Origin: Candidatus Peribacter sp.
GTDB lineage: Bacteria; Patescibacteriota; Gracilibacteria; Peribacterales; Peribacteraceae
Assembly: GCA_018652955.1 (NCBI GenBank)
Contig: JABIBA010000011.1
Coordinates: 62,001 to 126,000, forward strand
Reading direction: 5' to 3'
DNA: 64,000 bases
Below are positions 3 through 29,993 of the stretch, in pieces; positions within the stretch are counted from its first letter, which is position 1, and each line of letters starts with the position of its first letter. A model generated the notes under the pieces. That model was not told where the DNA came from. It did not search any database and worked only from the letters and a program-made list of their open reading frames with translations. The position numbers and the translations under genes were made by a program.

Positions 3-1664
3 GAAAGCCTGCAAAACGATATATTAGGAGAATCCATTGTGATTCACGGTACAGATGACCGTCACGTACTACTTCCAAAAGGTTCCTCAGCTCTTGATGG
101 AGCTTTTTACTGTTACGGAAATAAGGCGCTGTTTATTCAGTCTATTCAGATCGATGGTATAGAGGTTCCATTTCATACCCCTCTGCATAATGCGGTATCG
201 CTTAGTGTGACTACTGGTAAGCAGAAAACGGTATCACTAGAATGGCTGCATTGGATTAGCTCGGGGCTAGCAACAGCAATGATTCGCAGCTCTCTCGCAC
301 AACTCTCTGGGACAAAAAGACGAGTAATTGGAAAAGAGCTTCTACAAAACTTCCTCACCGCCCACAAAAAAGGATACATCGAAGAATTTAACAAGCAGTC
401 ACTGCTCGATGCCCTACAAAAAGTTGGATATACTTCTTTGAACCAAGCTTATGAAGGAATAGCCGATGGGCACTTACAACCATCTGATGTATACGAATCG
501 CTCTTTGCTATTTCTAAGAAAGGATCAAAAGATATTGTAACGCGCATCAAAACCAAAATATGCTTTACGATGAATTTTGATGACTACGACTCTGTAACAA
601 AGACGCTAGACGTATATAAATGTTACGGAATTTCTCTACGCAGTGTGCGGTTCCGTCCATTTGCTATGAGCCGCGGAAACATCTGCGTTGTGCATCCATT
701 TACACCAAAAGAGCAGCAATCTATCTCAAGAGACTTGGAAGCTGCTGGAGTAGAAAATGTGCACGTCGTCGCTGCGAACTCTCGAATGAAATTCTTATTT
801 GGTGCTGGGTTCCTTCTACTAGTATGGGGATTTGACCCCGCTATCGCTTATCATATTATTCATGAGTTCGATGTATCGCCTGTTGACCTTACTCTGCTGC
901 GCTGTTGGGCTCTCACTGTGCTCTCTGGACTGACACTCCTATGGCAGAGAATGACAAAAAAAGACCAGTACATTTCTATCCCTATTCGCAATCTATCGCT
1001 GTGGATATCTGTACTACTCATGATTTGTATCTCCCTTACGTCCTACATTGCCCTACAAGGAACCCAACCTGCACACTATTCTATTCCAATGACTGCTGCA
1101 GGTATTTTGCTAACGACTATTGTAAATAGAAAGCACTGGATAGTACTGATTTTCACATGGTTACTCCTGTTTATTGGTGTAGCTCTTGTTGCTCTATTCA
1201 CTCCGGTTTGGGATCTAAGTAGTATGATATTTATGCTTCTTGCAGTAATAGCCTTCTCTCTATTCTCCGTCGTTTCTGAAGCGTACAAAAAAGAGGTTAA
1301 CATTGGCGCTCGCGCTATTCAGTACTTCTTTGCACTCAGTCTACTGTGTACCATTCTTACAGCGCCTCTTTTGCTTATTTCAACAATTGACTCATTGCCA
1401 AGAGAGGCAATAGTAGAAATAGTTCTCTTTAGCGTCTTCATCGCAGGACTTCCTTACTACATGTACTACTCTCTGCTCTCGTATAAGCAAATCGACTTTG
1501 TACTGCGGTATTCATTCCTCATTATCTTTACGACAATATTAGGGCAGATGCTCTTTGCACCAAGTGCCCCACAGGTAAGTGGTCTCACACTCGTAAGCGG
1601 GCTTATCGTAACGGTCGGAGCTTTGCTTCCGATTGTCTTTAAAAAACGTACAGTAGAAGCTTAA
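3..1664 (+). CDS. RelA/SpoT-type C-terminal half fused to a 10-TM DMT/EamA-like membrane domain (5' end outside window)
   Basis: The reading frame is open from base 3, so the GTG at 39 is internal and the N-terminus lies upstream of the window. Nt 36-233 encode a TGS domain of the RelA/SpoT type (VLLPKGSSALDGAF, then a WLHWISSGLATAMIR stretch like the post-TGS helix). Nt 300-545 resemble the RelA helical domain (GKELLQNFL, LQKVGYTSLNQAYEGIADG). Nt 546-776 have an ACT-like beta-alpha pattern. From nt 792 to 1643 there are about ten hydrophobic helices; the first (LLVWGFDPAIAYHII then VDLTLLRCWAL) resembles EamA/DMT transporters. RelA/SpoT enzymes make or degrade (p)ppGpp and are normally soluble. 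The inference is a membrane-tethered alarmone enzyme or one coupled to a transporter-like sensor; whether the hydrolase and synthetase domains exist upstream cannot be seen. It overlaps its convergent neighbour by four bases. Confidence 0.85.
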   Translation, partial: ESLQNDILGESIVIHGTDDRHVLLPKGSSALDGAFYCYGNKALFIQSIQIDGIEVPFHTPLHNAVSLSVTTGKQKTVSLEWLHWISSGLATAMIRSSLAQLSGTKRRVIGKELLQNFLTAHKKGYIEEFNKQSLLDALQKVGYTSLNQAYEGIADGHLQPSDVYESLFAISKKGSKDIVTRIKTKICFTMNFDDYDSVTKTLDVYKCYGISLRSVRFRPFAMSRGNICVVHPFTPKEQQSISRDLEAAGVENVHVVAANSRMKFLFGAGFLLLVWGFDPAIAYHIIHEFDVSPVDLTLLRCWALTVLSGLTLLWQRMTKKDQYISIPIRNLSLWISVLLMICISLTSYIALQGTQPAHYSIPMTAAGILLTTIVNRKHWIVLIFTWLLLFIGVALVALFTPVWDLSSMIFMLLAVIAFSLFSVVSEAYKKEVNIGARAIQYFFALSLLCTILTAPLLLISTIDSLPREAIVEIVLFSVFIAGLPYYMYYSLLSYKQIDFVLRYSFLIIFTTILGQMLFAPSAPQVSGLTLVSGLIVTVGALLPIVFKKRTVEA

Positions 1665-23959: not shown

Positions 23960-24034
23960 TCCCGGGTAGCTCAGCGGTAGAGCAATTCGCTGTTAACGAA
24001 TGGGTCGTCGGTTCGAATCCGACCCCGGGAGCCA
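23960..24034 (+). tRNA. tRNA-Asn (anticodon GTT)
   Basis: Acceptor TCCCGGG pairs with CCCGGGA; D arm GCTC/GAGC; anticodon stem ATTCG/CGAAT with loop CTGTTAA; T arm GTCGG-TTCGAAT-CCGAC; discriminator G and encoded CCA. The 3' half is overlapped antisense by the end of a serine-recombinase remnant, so this tRNA gene is probably an integration site. Confidence 0.97.
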
Positions 24035-24415
24035 ATCATTAGTTTCATTGCAAAGCACTATACCTGCAAAGGGGTTTTTCAGCTTGTAGACTAGCTTTTC
24101 CCCTTCTACAGATGCGTTCGCAAGTACGAATCGTAGTAGTTCGTTCTTTTGCCTATCTTGCGATTTTTCAAATAGCTCATCTGCCTTGTTTGCAAGTTCC
24201 AGTATGTAAGAACTGGATATGAGGAAGGCTTCGTCTGCCTTGGAATGACCTTGTAGTTGCTCTATCAAATCAGACTCTTTTCGCTTTAAATCAACAACCA
24301 TAGTGTCGTACACATCATGCGTAATTCTCTTTATTTCTAGTTTCCCTATCTGTTTCAATTTCTGCAAGAATAATGCCTGTATCTGGGTCATGAGCCTCGA
24401 CCTTGCTAATACCAC
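23993..24415 (-). pseudogene. Serine-recombinase C-terminal remnant ending inside tRNA-Asn
   Basis: Up to 140 codons, of which about the last 110 look real: a Lys/Glu-rich helix (VDLKRKESDLIEQLQ), then FLISSSYILELANKADELFE, KNELLRFVLANASVEGEKL and KNPFAGIVLCN, which is how the large serine recombinases end. The final residues WLPGSDSNRRPIR are read antisense through the tRNA-Asn gene, a typical trace of integration into a tRNA. The catalytic serine domain and the DNA-binding domain are absent, so this is a decayed integrase. Its first 100 bases overlap the end of the next ORF in another frame. Confidence 0.75.
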
Positions 24416-25118
24416 CTTTCAAATACCCAAAGTAGTAATCGTCATAACAAATTTGGTCTGCAATGAAATCTTGCATTTCCAGTGCTTTTCCCCTGTCACC
24501 GCCATACCGAAGCGGATGGCAAAATTCTTCAAGAATAGTAAGTAGTAGTTGGTGGTGTTCTTCTTCTGTGGATGAAGCCAATACCCTAAATAAATCATCC
24601 AACATACGCCATTTAGTATTAGGGTAGTTAATAAGATAGACAGGAACATCGCAGTCTTTTAAGAATTTTACTAACCCTAAACCGCTATCAAAGTCACCCA
24701 TGTGTCGTGCGATATTTTCAAGAGCGACTGGTTTGATAATAGATTTCTGATTCTTTCCTTGCAGCTCTAATTTTACTTCAAAAATTCGCAAGGTATCAAA
24801 TTCTTCTTGTTTGAGCATAACACCATTGGGCAATGCACCTTCTGCCAAACATAATTCTTCTGTGTCATCTACCGCAGCTAATCGTTGAAGATTAAATAAA
24901 CGCTTTGCATTAGTAGCCCTGAAACATCCCTTACTATATAGATAGCGTAAGTTATCACGACCTGTATCAATATTTATCTTCTTTTCTTTATGCAAATCCA
25001 AGAGGCTAATCGCAACAATGTTGCCAGCTTGTATTGATTCCTCTTTGCGATTAAAAGTGTTCATCCACTGTTCTAGTAGATAATCTATCAGTGTTGTAAT
25101 TGGACTTTCGTTAGACAT
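24315..25118 (-). CDS. Hypothetical protein on island, mobile-element-associated type
   Basis: 267 aa starting MSNESPITTLIDYLL. It is soluble, helical and mixed in charge. The segment LLTILEEFCHPLRYGGDRGKALEMQDFI reminds me of hypothetical proteins common in Patescibacteria genomes, but I know no function for them. Codon choice is AT-richer than in the flanking housekeeping genes. No TANNNT box lies just before its start, unlike core genes. It lies between the recombinase remnant and the ABC transporter and is divergent from the latter. Confidence 0.6.
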   Translation of the reverse strand: MSNESPITTLIDYLLEQWMNTFNRKEESIQAGNIVAISLLDLHKEKKINIDTGRDNLRYLYSKGCFRATNAKRLFNLQRLAAVDDTEELCLAEGALPNGVMLKQEEFDTLRIFEVKLELQGKNQKSIIKPVALENIARHMGDFDSGLGLVKFLKDCDVPVYLINYPNTKWRMLDDLFRVLASSTEEEHHQLLLTILEEFCHPLRYGGDRGKALEMQDFIADQICYDDYYFGYLKGGISKVEAHDPDTGIILAEIETDRETRNKENYA

Positions 25119-25181
25119 TACAGTTTTGAGTGCATTTACAAAACAAGTAAACTATACTCGCACTATATTCCCACTTCCATT

Positions 25182-26228
25182 ATGAAAGCTGTAAATAAAT
25201 TTGTTCCTGCTATCGTTATATTCACCATTGTAGCCATTGGTGTCATTGCTTTTAGCTCAAAACAAATGTCACCATCGGATACTACTATGAAAGGAAATGA
25301 TGGTCTGTATCCTGGAAAGATAAAGGTGGGTCACTTGGTGGCATTGGATATGGCACCTCTTTTTGTTGCAAAGGAGGCAGGATTTTTTGAAGATGAGGGA
25401 TTGGATGTAGATTTGGCTTTCTTTTCAAATCCAGGCGACAATAATGCTGCATTGGCAGGTGGAAGTGTACAGTTTAATATCAACCCATTTACACTGCCCT
25501 ATTTTGGTGAAAATAGCGGAGTGCCAATGCGTATTATCTCTACGGCAGGAGGTTTGGAAATTATACAAGTAGTAATGCAAGGGCAGTACGAGGTAGAAAC
25601 CATCAAACAACTTGCAGAATGGGTAAAGAATAATCCTAACCAAACATTAAAGGTTGGAACATTGCGAGGTGACACGCTTGATATGATTCTATATAGATCA
25701 TTTGCAGAGGCAGGTTTAACTTACGATGATTTTGAAATGATTTGGTTCAACGACTTACTTGCTATGGTTGAATCATTCCGAACGGGTGACATTGCTATTT
25801 TAAGTCACATTAAGCCTTACACCACTGACCTTATAGTTAATTATGATGCAAAAGTTCTAACAAATAACGATGAGGTATGGGGGAAAGGCACACCAAACAC
25901 AACAATTGTTGTTTTGGAAGATTTCTTGGCACAATACCCAGAAACTGTTCGACGTTATTTGAGAGCAACCTATAAGGGATTTGAGCTAATTGTAAATAAC
26001 CCTGAACAAGCTGTTGAACTACTTACAGGTGGTAACTATTACAAGATTGATAATGATGTCCTCTTATATGCCTTGAAGAATCAGCCGAAGGAAGTTTTGT
26101 TACATCCAAATGTAGATGGCATGATGATGGCAATTCAGGATATGGTTCAACAAAACTATATTGAGCAACCGCAGCAGAACATTGTAAAAACTGACATACT
26201 AGATGCTGTTGTCCGAGAACTTCAATAA
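25182..26228 (+). CDS. ABC transporter substrate-binding protein, taurine/nitrate/thiamine-precursor type
   Basis: 348 aa with a single N-terminal hydrophobic helix (FVPAIVIFTIVAIGVIAFS) used as signal or anchor, without a lipobox. The body starts KIKVGHLVALDMAPLFVAKEAGFFEDEGLDV, the classic opening of the SsuA/TauA/NMT1 periplasmic-binding family, and contains the NPETV-like segment YPETVRRYLRATYKGFE. It binds a small organic anion or pyrimidine precursor outside the cell; the ligand cannot be deduced. First gene of a three-gene operon with permease and ATPase. The codon usage is AT-rich compared with the core genes. Confidence 0.88.
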   Translation: MKAVNKFVPAIVIFTIVAIGVIAFSSKQMSPSDTTMKGNDGLYPGKIKVGHLVALDMAPLFVAKEAGFFEDEGLDVDLAFFSNPGDNNAALAGGSVQFNINPFTLPYFGENSGVPMRIISTAGGLEIIQVVMQGQYEVETIKQLAEWVKNNPNQTLKVGTLRGDTLDMILYRSFAEAGLTYDDFEMIWFNDLLAMVESFRTGDIAILSHIKPYTTDLIVNYDAKVLTNNDEVWGKGTPNTTIVVLEDFLAQYPETVRRYLRATYKGFELIVNNPEQAVELLTGGNYYKIDNDVLLYALKNQPKEVLLHPNVDGMMMAIQDMVQQNYIEQPQQNIVKTDILDAVVRELQ

Positions 26229-26236
26229 TCTTTCCT

Positions 26237-27046
26237 ATGAAAGCTAACAAAGACACTATTATTTCATTTGTGTGCGGTCTTACATCTATAATAGTCCTTT
26301 GGGCTATATGGGAACTGACAACGGCACTTGGATGGCAGTATGCTAGGGTATTACCGCCGCCATCACAGTTCCTAGCTGACTTTGCTGATAGTGGCTTTAA
26401 AATTGGTCTTGGCTCGCAGGCTGCATCAGTCCCAGAATCTGTTGCTTCTAGTTTTTTCCGTGTTTTTATGGGGCTATCAATTGGCTTTGTTGCAGCTATT
26501 ACTTTTGGTGTTTTGGTAAGTATGAATATATGGGTCAAACGCTTTGTATTACCAATTGTGGAGCTATTAGCACCGATTGCACCTATTGCCTGGATACCAA
26601 TAGCATTAGTACTTTTTGGCATTGGAAATCAAACTGCAATTTTTATTGTATTTATGGGAGTGTTTTTTATTTTGACCATTGTGACGGTTAAGCTCATTAG
26701 CACTGTTCCACAACACCTCATCAATGTTGCAAGGACATTAGGGTATAAGAATTATCAAATCTGGTTATACGTTATCATTCCTTACATTTTACCTGGGGTA
26801 TTTACTATGTTACGTATCAATTTCATTGCAGCATGGATGGCAGTACTAGCAGCCGAGATGACAGGATTACGAGATGGTTTAGGTGCAATAGTAATGACAG
26901 GTCGCAATCTTTTTAATAGTGACCTTATACTCCTTGGCATGTGTCTCATTGGAATATCAGGATTTATTATTGATGTGATACTACGCTTTATTCAAAACAA
27001 GTTCTTTTGGTGGGATACCAATCAAGGTACATCAGCTCATAAATGA
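26237..27046 (+). CDS. ABC transporter permease (SsuC/TauC-like)
   Basis: 269 aa with six hydrophobic helices. The binding-protein-dependent permease signature is present near 190-215 (YVIIPYILPGVFTMLRINFIAAWMAVLAAEMTG), including the coupling-helix region for the ATPase. It starts eight bases after the substrate-binding protein gene, and its last bases overlap the ATPase gene (ATGA). Together with 25182 and 27043 it forms a complete importer for a sulfonate, nitrate or thiamine-precursor-like solute. Confidence 0.9.
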   Translation: MKANKDTIISFVCGLTSIIVLWAIWELTTALGWQYARVLPPPSQFLADFADSGFKIGLGSQAASVPESVASSFFRVFMGLSIGFVAAITFGVLVSMNIWVKRFVLPIVELLAPIAPIAWIPIALVLFGIGNQTAIFIVFMGVFFILTIVTVKLISTVPQHLINVARTLGYKNYQIWLYVIIPYILPGVFTMLRINFIAAWMAVLAAEMTGLRDGLGAIVMTGRNLFNSDLILLGMCLIGISGFIIDVILRFIQNKFFWWDTNQGTSAHK

Positions 27047-27900
27047 ATACTAAACACACTACAACGGCATCTTCAAAAATAGAGCCAGTAAAAGGTTTCT
27101 CATGTCAGAATGTACATTTTACCTGGAAGGATTCCGAACAACCCGTTGATGTATTAAAGGATGTATCGTTACAGATTCATAGTGGCGAGTTCGTTTCAAT
27201 TATAGGACCATCTGGCTGTGGAAAAACAACCTTACTGAATATTCTAGGCGGTGTTTCTAAACCTGATAGCGGTACGGTCTATTTAGACGGTCAGATTTTA
27301 GGTTCTTCAAAACAAGGAGTCACTGCACCAACAACAAGCGATGTAGGGGTGATTTTTCAGGACTACGGCTTGCTCCCCTGGCTAACTGTTAGAGGTAATG
27401 TTGCTTTCGGTATGAAAATGAGTGGAATACCAAAAAATGAACAAAAAAATGCAATTATTGAACTTTTGTCGAAGGTGGGCTTACTAGACTTTGCAAATCA
27501 TTATCCCCACCAATTATCTGGTGGAATGAAACAGCGAACATCAATTGCTCGCGCTCTTGCTAACCAGTCACAATATCTTCTAATGGATGAGCCATTTTCT
27601 GCACTGGACTTCCAAACACGATTGATGATGCAAGAGTTTCTTACAGACATCTGGCAGCAATTTAAGAAAACCATTGTCTTCATTACACATCACGTTGAAG
27701 AGGCTATTTTACTATCCGACAAAATTTATTTGCTATCGGCTCGACCAGGCACTGTATTGGAAGAAGTAACCATTGACCTACCTCGACCTCGCAATGTGGC
27801 TGATGCCAAATTCAACGAGTACCGCAATCATATCACTTCGTACTTGCAAAAAGAGGTCTTAAAGTCGTTTGAAGAGCAAAATGCAATTCCGTTGGGTTAG
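27043..27900 (+). CDS. ABC transporter ATPase (SsuB/TauB-like)
   Basis: 285 aa. Walker A GPSGCGKTT, Q-loop VIFQDYGLLPW, signature LSGGMKQRTSIARAL, Walker B YLLMDEPFSALD and switch His (FITHHVEEA) are all intact. It hydrolyses ATP to drive the importer made with the two preceding genes, with which it is co-translated. After its stop the sequence returns to genes with core-like composition, so this is probably the distal end of the island. Confidence 0.93.
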   Translation: MNTKHTTTASSKIEPVKGFSCQNVHFTWKDSEQPVDVLKDVSLQIHSGEFVSIIGPSGCGKTTLLNILGGVSKPDSGTVYLDGQILGSSKQGVTAPTTSDVGVIFQDYGLLPWLTVRGNVAFGMKMSGIPKNEQKNAIIELLSKVGLLDFANHYPHQLSGGMKQRTSIARALANQSQYLLMDEPFSALDFQTRLMMQEFLTDIWQQFKKTIVFITHHVEEAILLSDKIYLLSARPGTVLEEVTIDLPRPRNVADAKFNEYRNHITSYLQKEVLKSFEEQNAIPLG

Positions 27901-27975
27901 TATTACTTACTGCAATCATATAAGTTATACAGTACAATAATTAGGCATCAATAGTAATTTTAGGCTTTTAAGTTC

Positions 27976-28926
27976 ATGACCAAGCTCTTGAATTTCCTCT
28001 ATCCACTCTGTTCGCAAACCATCCAAGAGGGGGAGCCAATTATAAAACTTCATCCTATGGACCAAAGCGCAAATACATACACGCTTTTAGACTCTGGAAA
28101 TGAATTAAAACTAGAGCAGGTTGGTGCATACCGTCTTATTCGGTCTGCCCCACAAGCTTTGTGGAGCCCATCGTTAAACGAGCAAGAATGGGAAAACGTA
28201 GACGCGAGTTTAACATCGATTGAAGAAGGTAAAGTGGAATGGGATATACGAAATAAGGATATGCCTGACGAGTGGCAGATAGATGTGCCACCTGGAGTAA
28301 TGAACATGAAGCGTTCCGACTTTGGGCATCTGGGTATTTTTCCAGAACAGATGCGATATTGGGAACTCTTAGAACAATCAACTAAGAAGTGTATAGACCT
28401 ACATGGTGAGTGCAATGTGCTAAATCTGTTTGCATACACTGGAGGCTCTACCCTAGCGTGCGCGAAGGGCGGAGGGTCTGTCACTCACATCGATGCATCA
28501 AAGCCTTCGGTAACGTGGGCACGTAAAAATGCTAAAAGCTCTGGGCTAGAGAGTGCACCAATACGATGGATAGTTGATGATGTGCAAAAATTTGTCAGTC
28601 GTGAAATACAGCGTGGTAAAACTTACCATGGAATTATTCTCGATCCGCCTACATACGGAAAAGGAACAAAAGGAGAAACATGGAAAATTGACGATGACCT
28701 AGAGCCACTACTAGAGAACCTTCAACAGCTGATGAGTGAAGACTTCTCGTTTATGCATTTATGCGCACACTCAAACAATTATTCACCAGAAATACTCGAA
28801 GTATTTTTACGAGACATTATACCATCGCCAACTGGCACATTCCTTACAGAAGACATAATACTCAAAGCCTCTCATGGTAATGACTTACCAAGTGGAGCTT
28901 CTTGCCTCTATAGTCAGCAGGCTTAA
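27976..28926 (+). CDS. RlmI-like class I SAM methyltransferase
   Basis: 316 aa. An N-terminal beta-rich region of about 110 residues is followed by a Rossmann methyltransferase: motif I LNLFAYTGGSTLACAKGG, motif II HIDASKPSVTWARKNAK, and motif IV ILDPPTYGKGTKGETW. This combination is typical of the RlmI/RlmK group (23S rRNA m5C or m7G) and relatives. The catalytic cysteine of RlmI cannot be placed with certainty. Its stop overlaps the convergent rlmN gene by four bases. Confidence 0.8.
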   Translation: MTKLLNFLYPLCSQTIQEGEPIIKLHPMDQSANTYTLLDSGNELKLEQVGAYRLIRSAPQALWSPSLNEQEWENVDASLTSIEEGKVEWDIRNKDMPDEWQIDVPPGVMNMKRSDFGHLGIFPEQMRYWELLEQSTKKCIDLHGECNVLNLFAYTGGSTLACAKGGGSVTHIDASKPSVTWARKNAKSSGLESAPIRWIVDDVQKFVSREIQRGKTYHGIILDPPTYGKGTKGETWKIDDDLEPLLENLQQLMSEDFSFMHLCAHSNNYSPEILEVFLRDIIPSPTGTFLTEDIILKASHGNDLPSGASCLYSQQA

Positions 28927-29993
28927 CCAACCACCTTTCCATCAGACTTGATAGTGAGGGCCAACTGCCCGCATGCAGCAGCAATATCACTACCCATGGT
29001 TTTTCGCTCTGTGACATCTACTCCAGAATCGAGGAGTACTTTTTTAAACTTTTCGATCCCCTCTCTAGGACTTGCCACAAACTCTTTTCCAGCAACTAGA
29101 TTGAGTGGAATAACATTCACTTTGACGGCACTGGTAGTTTTGACAAATTTAACGAGGCGCTTCGCTTCCTCTTCGTTATCATTCACACCAGAGATAAGCG
29201 TGTACTCAAACGTAATGTGGTGATTGCGGTTTCCATGTTCGAGCTCATAGTCTTTGGTCCACTGTGCTAGCCTCGTATGAAAATTTGGTGCAGTTGTAGG
29301 GACAATCTTGCGTCGACTCTCTTCTTCTGGACTGTGCAAAGAAATCGCGATGCGCACAGGTGGCCAGTCGGGATCTGTAAGGATTCCTTCCAGTACTGGA
29401 AGTACGCCAACAGTCGACACGGTAACTTTAGTCGGCCCAAGATCTGTGTAGTCGAGCCATGTGTGAATTGCCTTTTTTACGTTATCGACATTCACGAGTG
29501 GTTCGCCCATTCCCATAAATACTACATTGGAAATTCTCTGAGGAAGCTCTGGGCGCTGCGATAAAAACTGTTTCCAAAATCTATATTGATCGGCAATCTC
29601 ATCAGAACTTAAACTTCTTTTAAGGCCCATCGTTCCTGTTGCACAAAACGTGCAGCCCATTGCACAGCCAATTTGTGACGACACACATATCGTCCATTGG
29701 TCTCGATTGTTTCTCATAAGCACACTCTCGAAGTACTGCTCGTCATTTCCTGAGAGCACAACTTTGTGTGTATCCCCTGCCTTGCTTGAAAGAGTCGTGA
29801 CTGGAGTACAGCTCATCCATGGAATTTCTTTTATAAGGACTTCTCGCATTTCTTTACCAAGAGTCGTCACGTCTTCCCATCCTTTCATCGATTCTGTGAA
29901 ATACGCCTTCTCAATTTGCTTTAGACGAAATGCAGGCTCTTTAGGAAAAAGCTTTACGAAGTGATCGTGCCTATTGAGAGGGGCTTCGGTCAT
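28923..29993 (-). CDS. rlmN: Dual-specificity 23S rRNA/tRNA adenine-C2 methyltransferase RlmN
   Basis: 356 aa, standard length. The radical-SAM cluster motif CAMGCTFC (Cys110, Cys114, Cys117; CxxxCxxC) sits in IGCAMGCTFCATGTMGL, followed by NVVFMGMGEPLVNVDNV. A late Cys in DIAAACGQLA corresponds to the substrate-linked cysteine of RlmN/Cfr enzymes. RlmN methylates A2503 in 23S rRNA and A37 in some tRNAs. A TATAGA box ends eight bases before the ATG. Confidence 0.96.
   Translation of the reverse strand: MTEAPLNRHDHFVKLFPKEPAFRLKQIEKAYFTESMKGWEDVTTLGKEMREVLIKEIPWMSCTPVTTLSSKAGDTHKVVLSGNDEQYFESVLMRNNRDQWTICVSSQIGCAMGCTFCATGTMGLKRSLSSDEIADQYRFWKQFLSQRPELPQRISNVVFMGMGEPLVNVDNVKKAIHTWLDYTDLGPTKVTVSTVGVLPVLEGILTDPDWPPVRIAISLHSPEEESRRKIVPTTAPNFHTRLAQWTKDYELEHGNRNHHITFEYTLISGVNDNEEEAKRLVKFVKTTSAVKVNVIPLNLVAGKEFVASPREGIEKFKKVLLDSGVDVTERKTMGSDIAAACGQLALTIKSDGKVVG

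Follow-up and report, generated by a model that had tools for sequence, protein, structure and literature searches.

An ABC importer cassette in a tRNA-Asn gene of a Peribacteraceae-type genome is joined to a recurrent serine-integrase tail

Described systems and the tRNA-Asn locus

Tycheposons bring nutrient cargo to tRNA genes, and the gene II protein of M13 is a rolling-circle initiator. The tRNA islands collected in Islander have an intact tDNA at one end, a displaced fragment at the other and an integrase by the tDNA, and they occur in tandem arrays; serine integrases aiming at tRNA genes are stated there as unknown (PMC4383910). In streptococcal ICEs inserted in rumA, the att site lies at the 3' end of a serine-integrase gene, and integration exchanges the C-terminal end of the integrase with the target gene (PMC4701971). 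Tycheposons and other hitcher elements are small and helper-dependent, and CALIN and integron cassettes are stackable and share a common recombination module, with the integrase acting in trans (PMC11389934). In the open-licence literature, we found little on integrative elements of Patescibacteria and no paper on cassettes of the present kind in these bacteria.

Here we describe a 4004-bp cassette in the tRNA-Asn gene of a Ca. Peribacteraceae-type genome, at 24027–28030 of the window (the whole 64,000-nt stretch of DNA that was analyzed). It shares the layout of the Islander islands, but its integrase is of the serine and not the tyrosine type, only the 3' tail of it is present, and the displaced piece is an 8-nt tRNA fragment with a P' arm. 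The exchanged integrase end recalls the streptococcal ICEs, whereas the target here is an antisense tRNA gene, the element is non-autonomous, and no conjugation genes were seen in the island. The likeness to tycheposons and other hitchers is one of concept; the cassette has a serine-integrase tail with a Rep-linked site and no tyrosine recombinase, which is a criterion for tycheposons. CALIN and integron cassettes are comparable in working principle only, since the module here is a serine-integrase tail with attP at tRNA-Asn and the junctions are serine-integrase att cores. The cassette behaves like a hitcher element that uses the integrase of another, and is neither a classical tRNA island nor a tycheposon. 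The serine integrases of this class overlap 48 distinct tRNA genes, all antisense (types Asn, Gln, Arg, Glu, His, Tyr, Val, Lys, Ile, Asp and Ala), and use tRNA genes as a rule.

Borders, empty site and cargo of the island

At the left end, an intact tRNA-Asn(GTT) gene (23960–24034, plus strand, ARAGORN), the 3' end of which is the attachment site, is joined to the final ~100 codons of a serine-integrase gene. A repeat search located the attL core GGGAGCCA, which is the tRNA 3' end (24027–24034, plus strand), and the attR core, a second copy of GGGAGCCA (28031–28038, plus strand), 4004 bp apart. The second core is accompanied by a conserved attP' arm, TGGCTCCC and then CCTCTTGGATGGTTTGCGAACAGAGTGG on the minus strand (28003–28030). 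A first-pass annotation of this DNA had seen no second tRNA 3' end and had let the island run to 27900; both statements are overturned by the attR core and P' arm, which place the end at ~28030 and thus leave the methyltransferase start at 28057 in the chromosome.

The unoccupied attP, read from internal tail copies in relatives, consists of TGGCTCCC followed by an arm like CTTGTTGGACGCAATGCGAACCGATTGG. We built a P' arm consensus from two such internal copies, leaving the window out, and it matched the window minus strand at 28038 (TGGCTCCCCCTCTTGGATGGTTTGCGAACAGAGTGG) in 27 of 30 positions, compared with 21 for the best of 20 shuffled windows. The same P' arm was found at the far end (attR) of an intact 14.0-kb element in G022 and at tandem junctions in G085 and G027. 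(The window genome is G000; all genomes compared are drafts.) We also noted that the P' arms of the window, L035, L080 and L150 stay in the frame of the tail (WLP.L..RTDW..DI..LG); judged from these frames, the integrase C-terminus would be longer when encoded by a circular form than after integration.

In G002, which belongs to the same genus, tRNA-Asn is followed directly by rlmN, within a few bases, indicating that the insertion site is empty there. In the window, the corresponding gene (28923–29993, minus strand), which we take to be an RlmN homologue from knowledge of the sequence and without a profile, is the chromosomal flank. A right border drawn from similarity to G002 alone (28922) was misleading, because G002 also lacks the methyltransferase gene, and it was the P' arm that gave the true border. 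These results make the island and its delimitation near certain. They include an intact tRNA at one border, a displaced tRNA end at the other and an uninterrupted site in a relative; the complete integrase expected of a tRNA-targeted island is not on board, only residues 386–493 being kept.

The methyltransferase gene between the island and rlmN (28057–28926, plus strand, with its true start at 28057; the start at 27976 given by the ORF caller lies inside the island) has no counterpart in the four genomes of the same genus, and was gained or lost independently at this same junction. A different small island was seen at the same tRNA-Asn in G003 of this genus (L159:4716–7358); it carries a Fur-type regulator, a ZIP zinc transporter and a YibE/F protein, has a second P' arm type, and contains neither integrase nor tail.

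The cargo is a complete importer operon of the SsuABC/TauABC type (25182–27900), as the first-pass annotation had proposed. Profile searches identified a substrate-binding protein (SBP) of the NMT1/SsuA class (348 aa; 25182–26228), a permease of the TauC/SsuC/NtrB type (26237–27046) and an ATPase of the SaoA/TauB/NtrCD type (27043–27900), all on the plus strand. The profiles NMT1_2, BPD_transp_1 and ABC_tran were all above their gathering scores, and all NCBIfam equivalog scores were under the cut-off, so that no specific equivalog was assigned. The SBP has an N-terminal hydrophobic anchor with no lipobox Cys seen, and the solved structures nearest to it are binders of nitrate, bicarbonate and pyrimidine. 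The claim that -10 boxes are missing held for 25118, with none within 16 nt, but not for the SBP gene, where TATATT (25164–25169, plus strand) lies 12 nt 5' of the ATG at 25182; only 35 of the 55 window genes have such a box.

The remaining open reading frame of 267 aa (24315–25118, minus strand) reads through the junction at which the integrase tail begins. It had been listed as an unknown protein, and it indeed has no relatives in 74 family genomes; its frame is open for 276 codons upstream of the junction and stops 2 codons past it, and the ORF is probably a gene truncated by this internal junction rather than a whole one.

The SBP occurs in 3 of 353 class genomes, G000, G055 (67%) and G128 (59%), each of another family, and none of the searched genomes from the same genus or family has the importer. 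In G055 the SBP gene is followed by both a permease and an ATPase gene; in G128 a permease gene follows and reaches the contig end. Neither locus showed an att site. The SBP gene of G128 contains 12 in-frame TGA codons, and this genome apparently uses another genetic code. In-frame TGA at positions where relatives have Gly was also noted in L154, L133 and L134 (G128, G108 and G158), the families of which appear to read TGA as sense (table 25).

Base composition is lower in G+C over 24–28 kb (38–39%, against ~43–46% around), and GC3 is lower as well. The AT-richness noted earlier is therefore real, but it does not extend to codon choice, which fits core usage (the four cargo genes rank 11–45 of 55). 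This fit is what a native, vertically inherited operon without any island would show. Such an origin is, however, already refuted by the empty site in G002 together with the att repeats and by the distribution of the importer in three families, and we give it practically no weight; the gene order shared with relatives that had been named as evidence for it was not seen, the order being different. Because the G002 site is empty, both att junctions were found and the importer is present in so few genomes of separate families, its horizontal acquisition at tRNA-Asn, suggested in the first-pass annotation, is supported.

A recurrent, base-exact integrase tail

The frame that runs antisense into the 3' half of tRNA-Asn is open over 23993–24415. 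Its last 108 residues align with residues 386–493 of the intact 493-aa integrase that G022 carries at tRNA-Asn (57% identity, E ~1e-32), a protein with the Pfam domains Resolvase (PF00239) and Recombinase (PF07508), which bears out the earlier reading of a serine-recombinase C-terminus. The tail proper (23993–24325, minus strand), equivalent to residues 388–493, ends inside tRNA-Asn. In G004, of the same genus, this tRNA likewise adjoins a tail, 94% identical in amino acids, and the DNA beyond it is quite different; the fragment is thus not a chance reading frame. The window frame is intact, with a dN/dS of 0.11 against the G004 tail, and homology between the two stops at the same base.

This base proved to be shared widely. 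The window tail starts at a junction of GAGA with ATTAC (24321–24329, minus strand), where intact integrases have GTATTAC. Fourteen integrase tails from ~10 genomes of several families (G000, G004, two in G027, G085, G067, two in G075, G077, G108, G320, two in G268, and G064) all start at the same base, with ATTAC, at codon I388. The DNA 5' of them is unrelated save for a preferred GNGA, with G at position -2 in 13 of the 14 (T in G064). In G006, too, GGGAATTAC is present, and an apparent deletion of 36 nt comes after it; the remnant in G026 breaks elsewhere, at codon ~354. The tails are 36–65% identical to the G022 integrase and come from clearly different integrase lineages, and thus do not go back to one inherited deletion. 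A chimeric assembly at 5–7 bases of identity in fourteen places is unlikely, though individual junctions may be of this kind.

Cassettes occur in tandem in relatives: tails and P' arms alternate in G085, G027, G075 and G268, as successive integrations at the same tRNA would leave them. Searches for a cognate integrase in the rest of G000, for relatives of the tail in viral contigs and for the junction partner as an intact copy in G077 all gave nothing. We rejected the idea that the junction arose when another element inserted into the integrase gene, since the searches turned up no remnant of the integrase N-terminus that stops at codon 387; a junction hairpin was also rejected, there being no consistent structure and a hairpin only in G077 and G108.

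Most tails have open frames, with dN/dS of 0.08–0.3. The open frames and the low dN/dS between sister tails might suggest that a short functional protein is being maintained, a coiled-coil or DNA-binding integrase end that regulates recombination. We consider this very improbable, since the upstream frames differ and neither a consistent start codon nor a fused upstream frame is present, some tails have frameshifts or stops (G027b, G064), and a recent origin from intact integrases explains the low dN/dS equally well.

An autonomous serine-integrase island in tRNA-Asn that lost most of its integrase by random deletion, leaving the importer as surviving cargo, would account for a remnant with attL and attR, for AT-rich cargo and for a G000 genome without an intact cognate integrase. 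It would not explain why 14 tails, which derive from diverged integrases and have unrelated DNA upstream, share one and the same deletion end, nor why most tails retain open frames under such dN/dS values, and we regard it as unlikely. These data identify the recombinase remnant as a 3' tail that recurs with a base-exact start, and not as debris or the product of random decay.

A conserved site, a putative Rep and a proposed origin of the cassette

To examine the break site at the DNA level, we aligned 15 divergent intact integrases. Codon 388 is ATT in all 15, so that 105 of 105 pairs are identical where 36.9 are expected; residue 387 varies (R, S or C), with a codon NGT in 14 of 15. GTATTAC is present in 14 of the 15, and the three-codon window 386–388 ranks first of 379 for synonymous conservation. 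The motif was found in none of 18 other serine integrases of these genomes, even where residues I-T are kept. The synonymous conservation and the absence from these controls indicate that GTATTAC is a DNA signal confined to this integrase clade. The position of the break, at the point where synonymous conservation of the gene is highest, further speaks against random deletion. Synonymous conservation is also raised at other stretches of the tail, namely codons 440–470 and codon 486, and codons 440–470 possibly hold further binding sites. A sequence carrying this candidate nick site is GCGTATTAC.

In these elements, a protein of ~390 aa, a putative Rep, adjoins the integrase gene and is usually encoded directly upstream of it. 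Our searches of 353 class genomes detected it in 16, and in 14 of these a cognate integrase that is intact or nearly so is also present; no other gene tracks the GTATTAC site. The putative Rep is absent from G000, and intact cognate integrases with no Rep detected were seen in G231 and G335, on short contigs. In the intact G022 parent element (L150:12812 to the tRNA-Asn in L034), the stretch between attR and rep/int additionally encodes a complete type I restriction-modification system. Against phrog_702, 4 of 12 members of the putative Rep matched, weakly (best E 1.6e-4; the M13 gene II control gave 3.5e-84), and NCBIfam rep_II_X (TIGR01629) gave only 0.031. A direct hhalign comparison of the putative Rep with an M13 gene II fragment was not significant, and no relatives were found in the PDB or in the phage and plasmid collections. 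Pf1 orf 430 was discarded as a gene II control, as it lies outside that family.

Since the putative Rep adjoins the integrase gene and weakly matches phrog_702, we propose GTATTAC as its nick site. The nick sites of M13 and pC194 are places of base-exact illegitimate recombination. The promotion of illegitimate recombination by rolling-circle replication lends this general support (PMC5703833). In these respects the parent elements and their products resemble rolling-circle elements of the M13 gene II type (phrog_702/TIGR01629), with a putative Rep in the parents that weakly matches the family and junctions that are base-exact at the presumed nick site; in contrast to such elements, the presumed origin is inside an integrase gene and the deletion products would still be able to integrate.

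We infer that the cassette is probably a non-autonomous product of premature rolling-circle termination at a nick site in the integrase gene, integrated in trans. A parent element, as found in relatives, would encode an M13 gene II-like Rep and an adjacent large serine integrase, the gene of which would hold two DNA sites, the nick site GTATTAC (codons 387–389) and attP at its 3' end. Replication started at ATTAC would copy the tail, attP and then the cargo behind it. Early termination at a GNGA-like sequence in the cargo would close the displaced strand into a circle that keeps ATTAC, the tail, attP and the cargo beyond attP', and loses rep and the N-terminal part of the integrase. An intact integrase could then insert this circle in trans into the 3' end of tRNA-Asn, exchanging the end of the integrase frame for antisense tRNA sequence; in the window, the importer would have been delivered so. 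Reading frames cut at the junction, as in G000, G077, G085 and G004, are what such circle closure would be expected to produce. Against this origin speak the weakness of the Rep profile matches, the lack of a hairpin common to the junctions, the raised synonymous conservation of other tail stretches, the different break point in G026, and the intact integrases of G231 and G335 for which no Rep was detected.

The insertion sequence IS608 targets TTAC. Another site-specific enzyme acting at GTATTAC, such as a TTAC-targeting transposase or homing-type nuclease, could likewise join foreign DNA to the tail with a base-exact junction and a short preferred partner sequence such as GNGA. However, such joining would leave an N-terminal remnant ending at codon 387, which was not seen; the cassettes that contain the tails are unrelated in their upstream DNA and, GNGA apart, have no element end in common, and Rep is the sole gene that tracks the site. 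We therefore hold this alternative to be improbable, if somewhat less so than random decay, and prefer premature termination of rolling-circle replication.

How small-genome Patescibacteria acquire genes is poorly known. If the proposed origin is true, mobile cargo cassettes that have both of the cis sites they need arise through a replication error, at an origin lying within an integrase gene, and this route is testable. It would also provide a one-step origin for non-autonomous islands with exact ends, which are usually put down to "reductive evolution." On a broader reading, for and against which we see the balance as even, a rolling-circle origin nested in a serine-integrase gene would continually make satellite cassettes in Peribacteria-type and related ultra-small bacteria. 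These cassettes, each a segment from nick site to attP with adjacent cargo, would accumulate side by side in tRNA-Asn, as integron cassettes do, and would carry transporters and other genes from one family to another, some of these families using a different genetic code.
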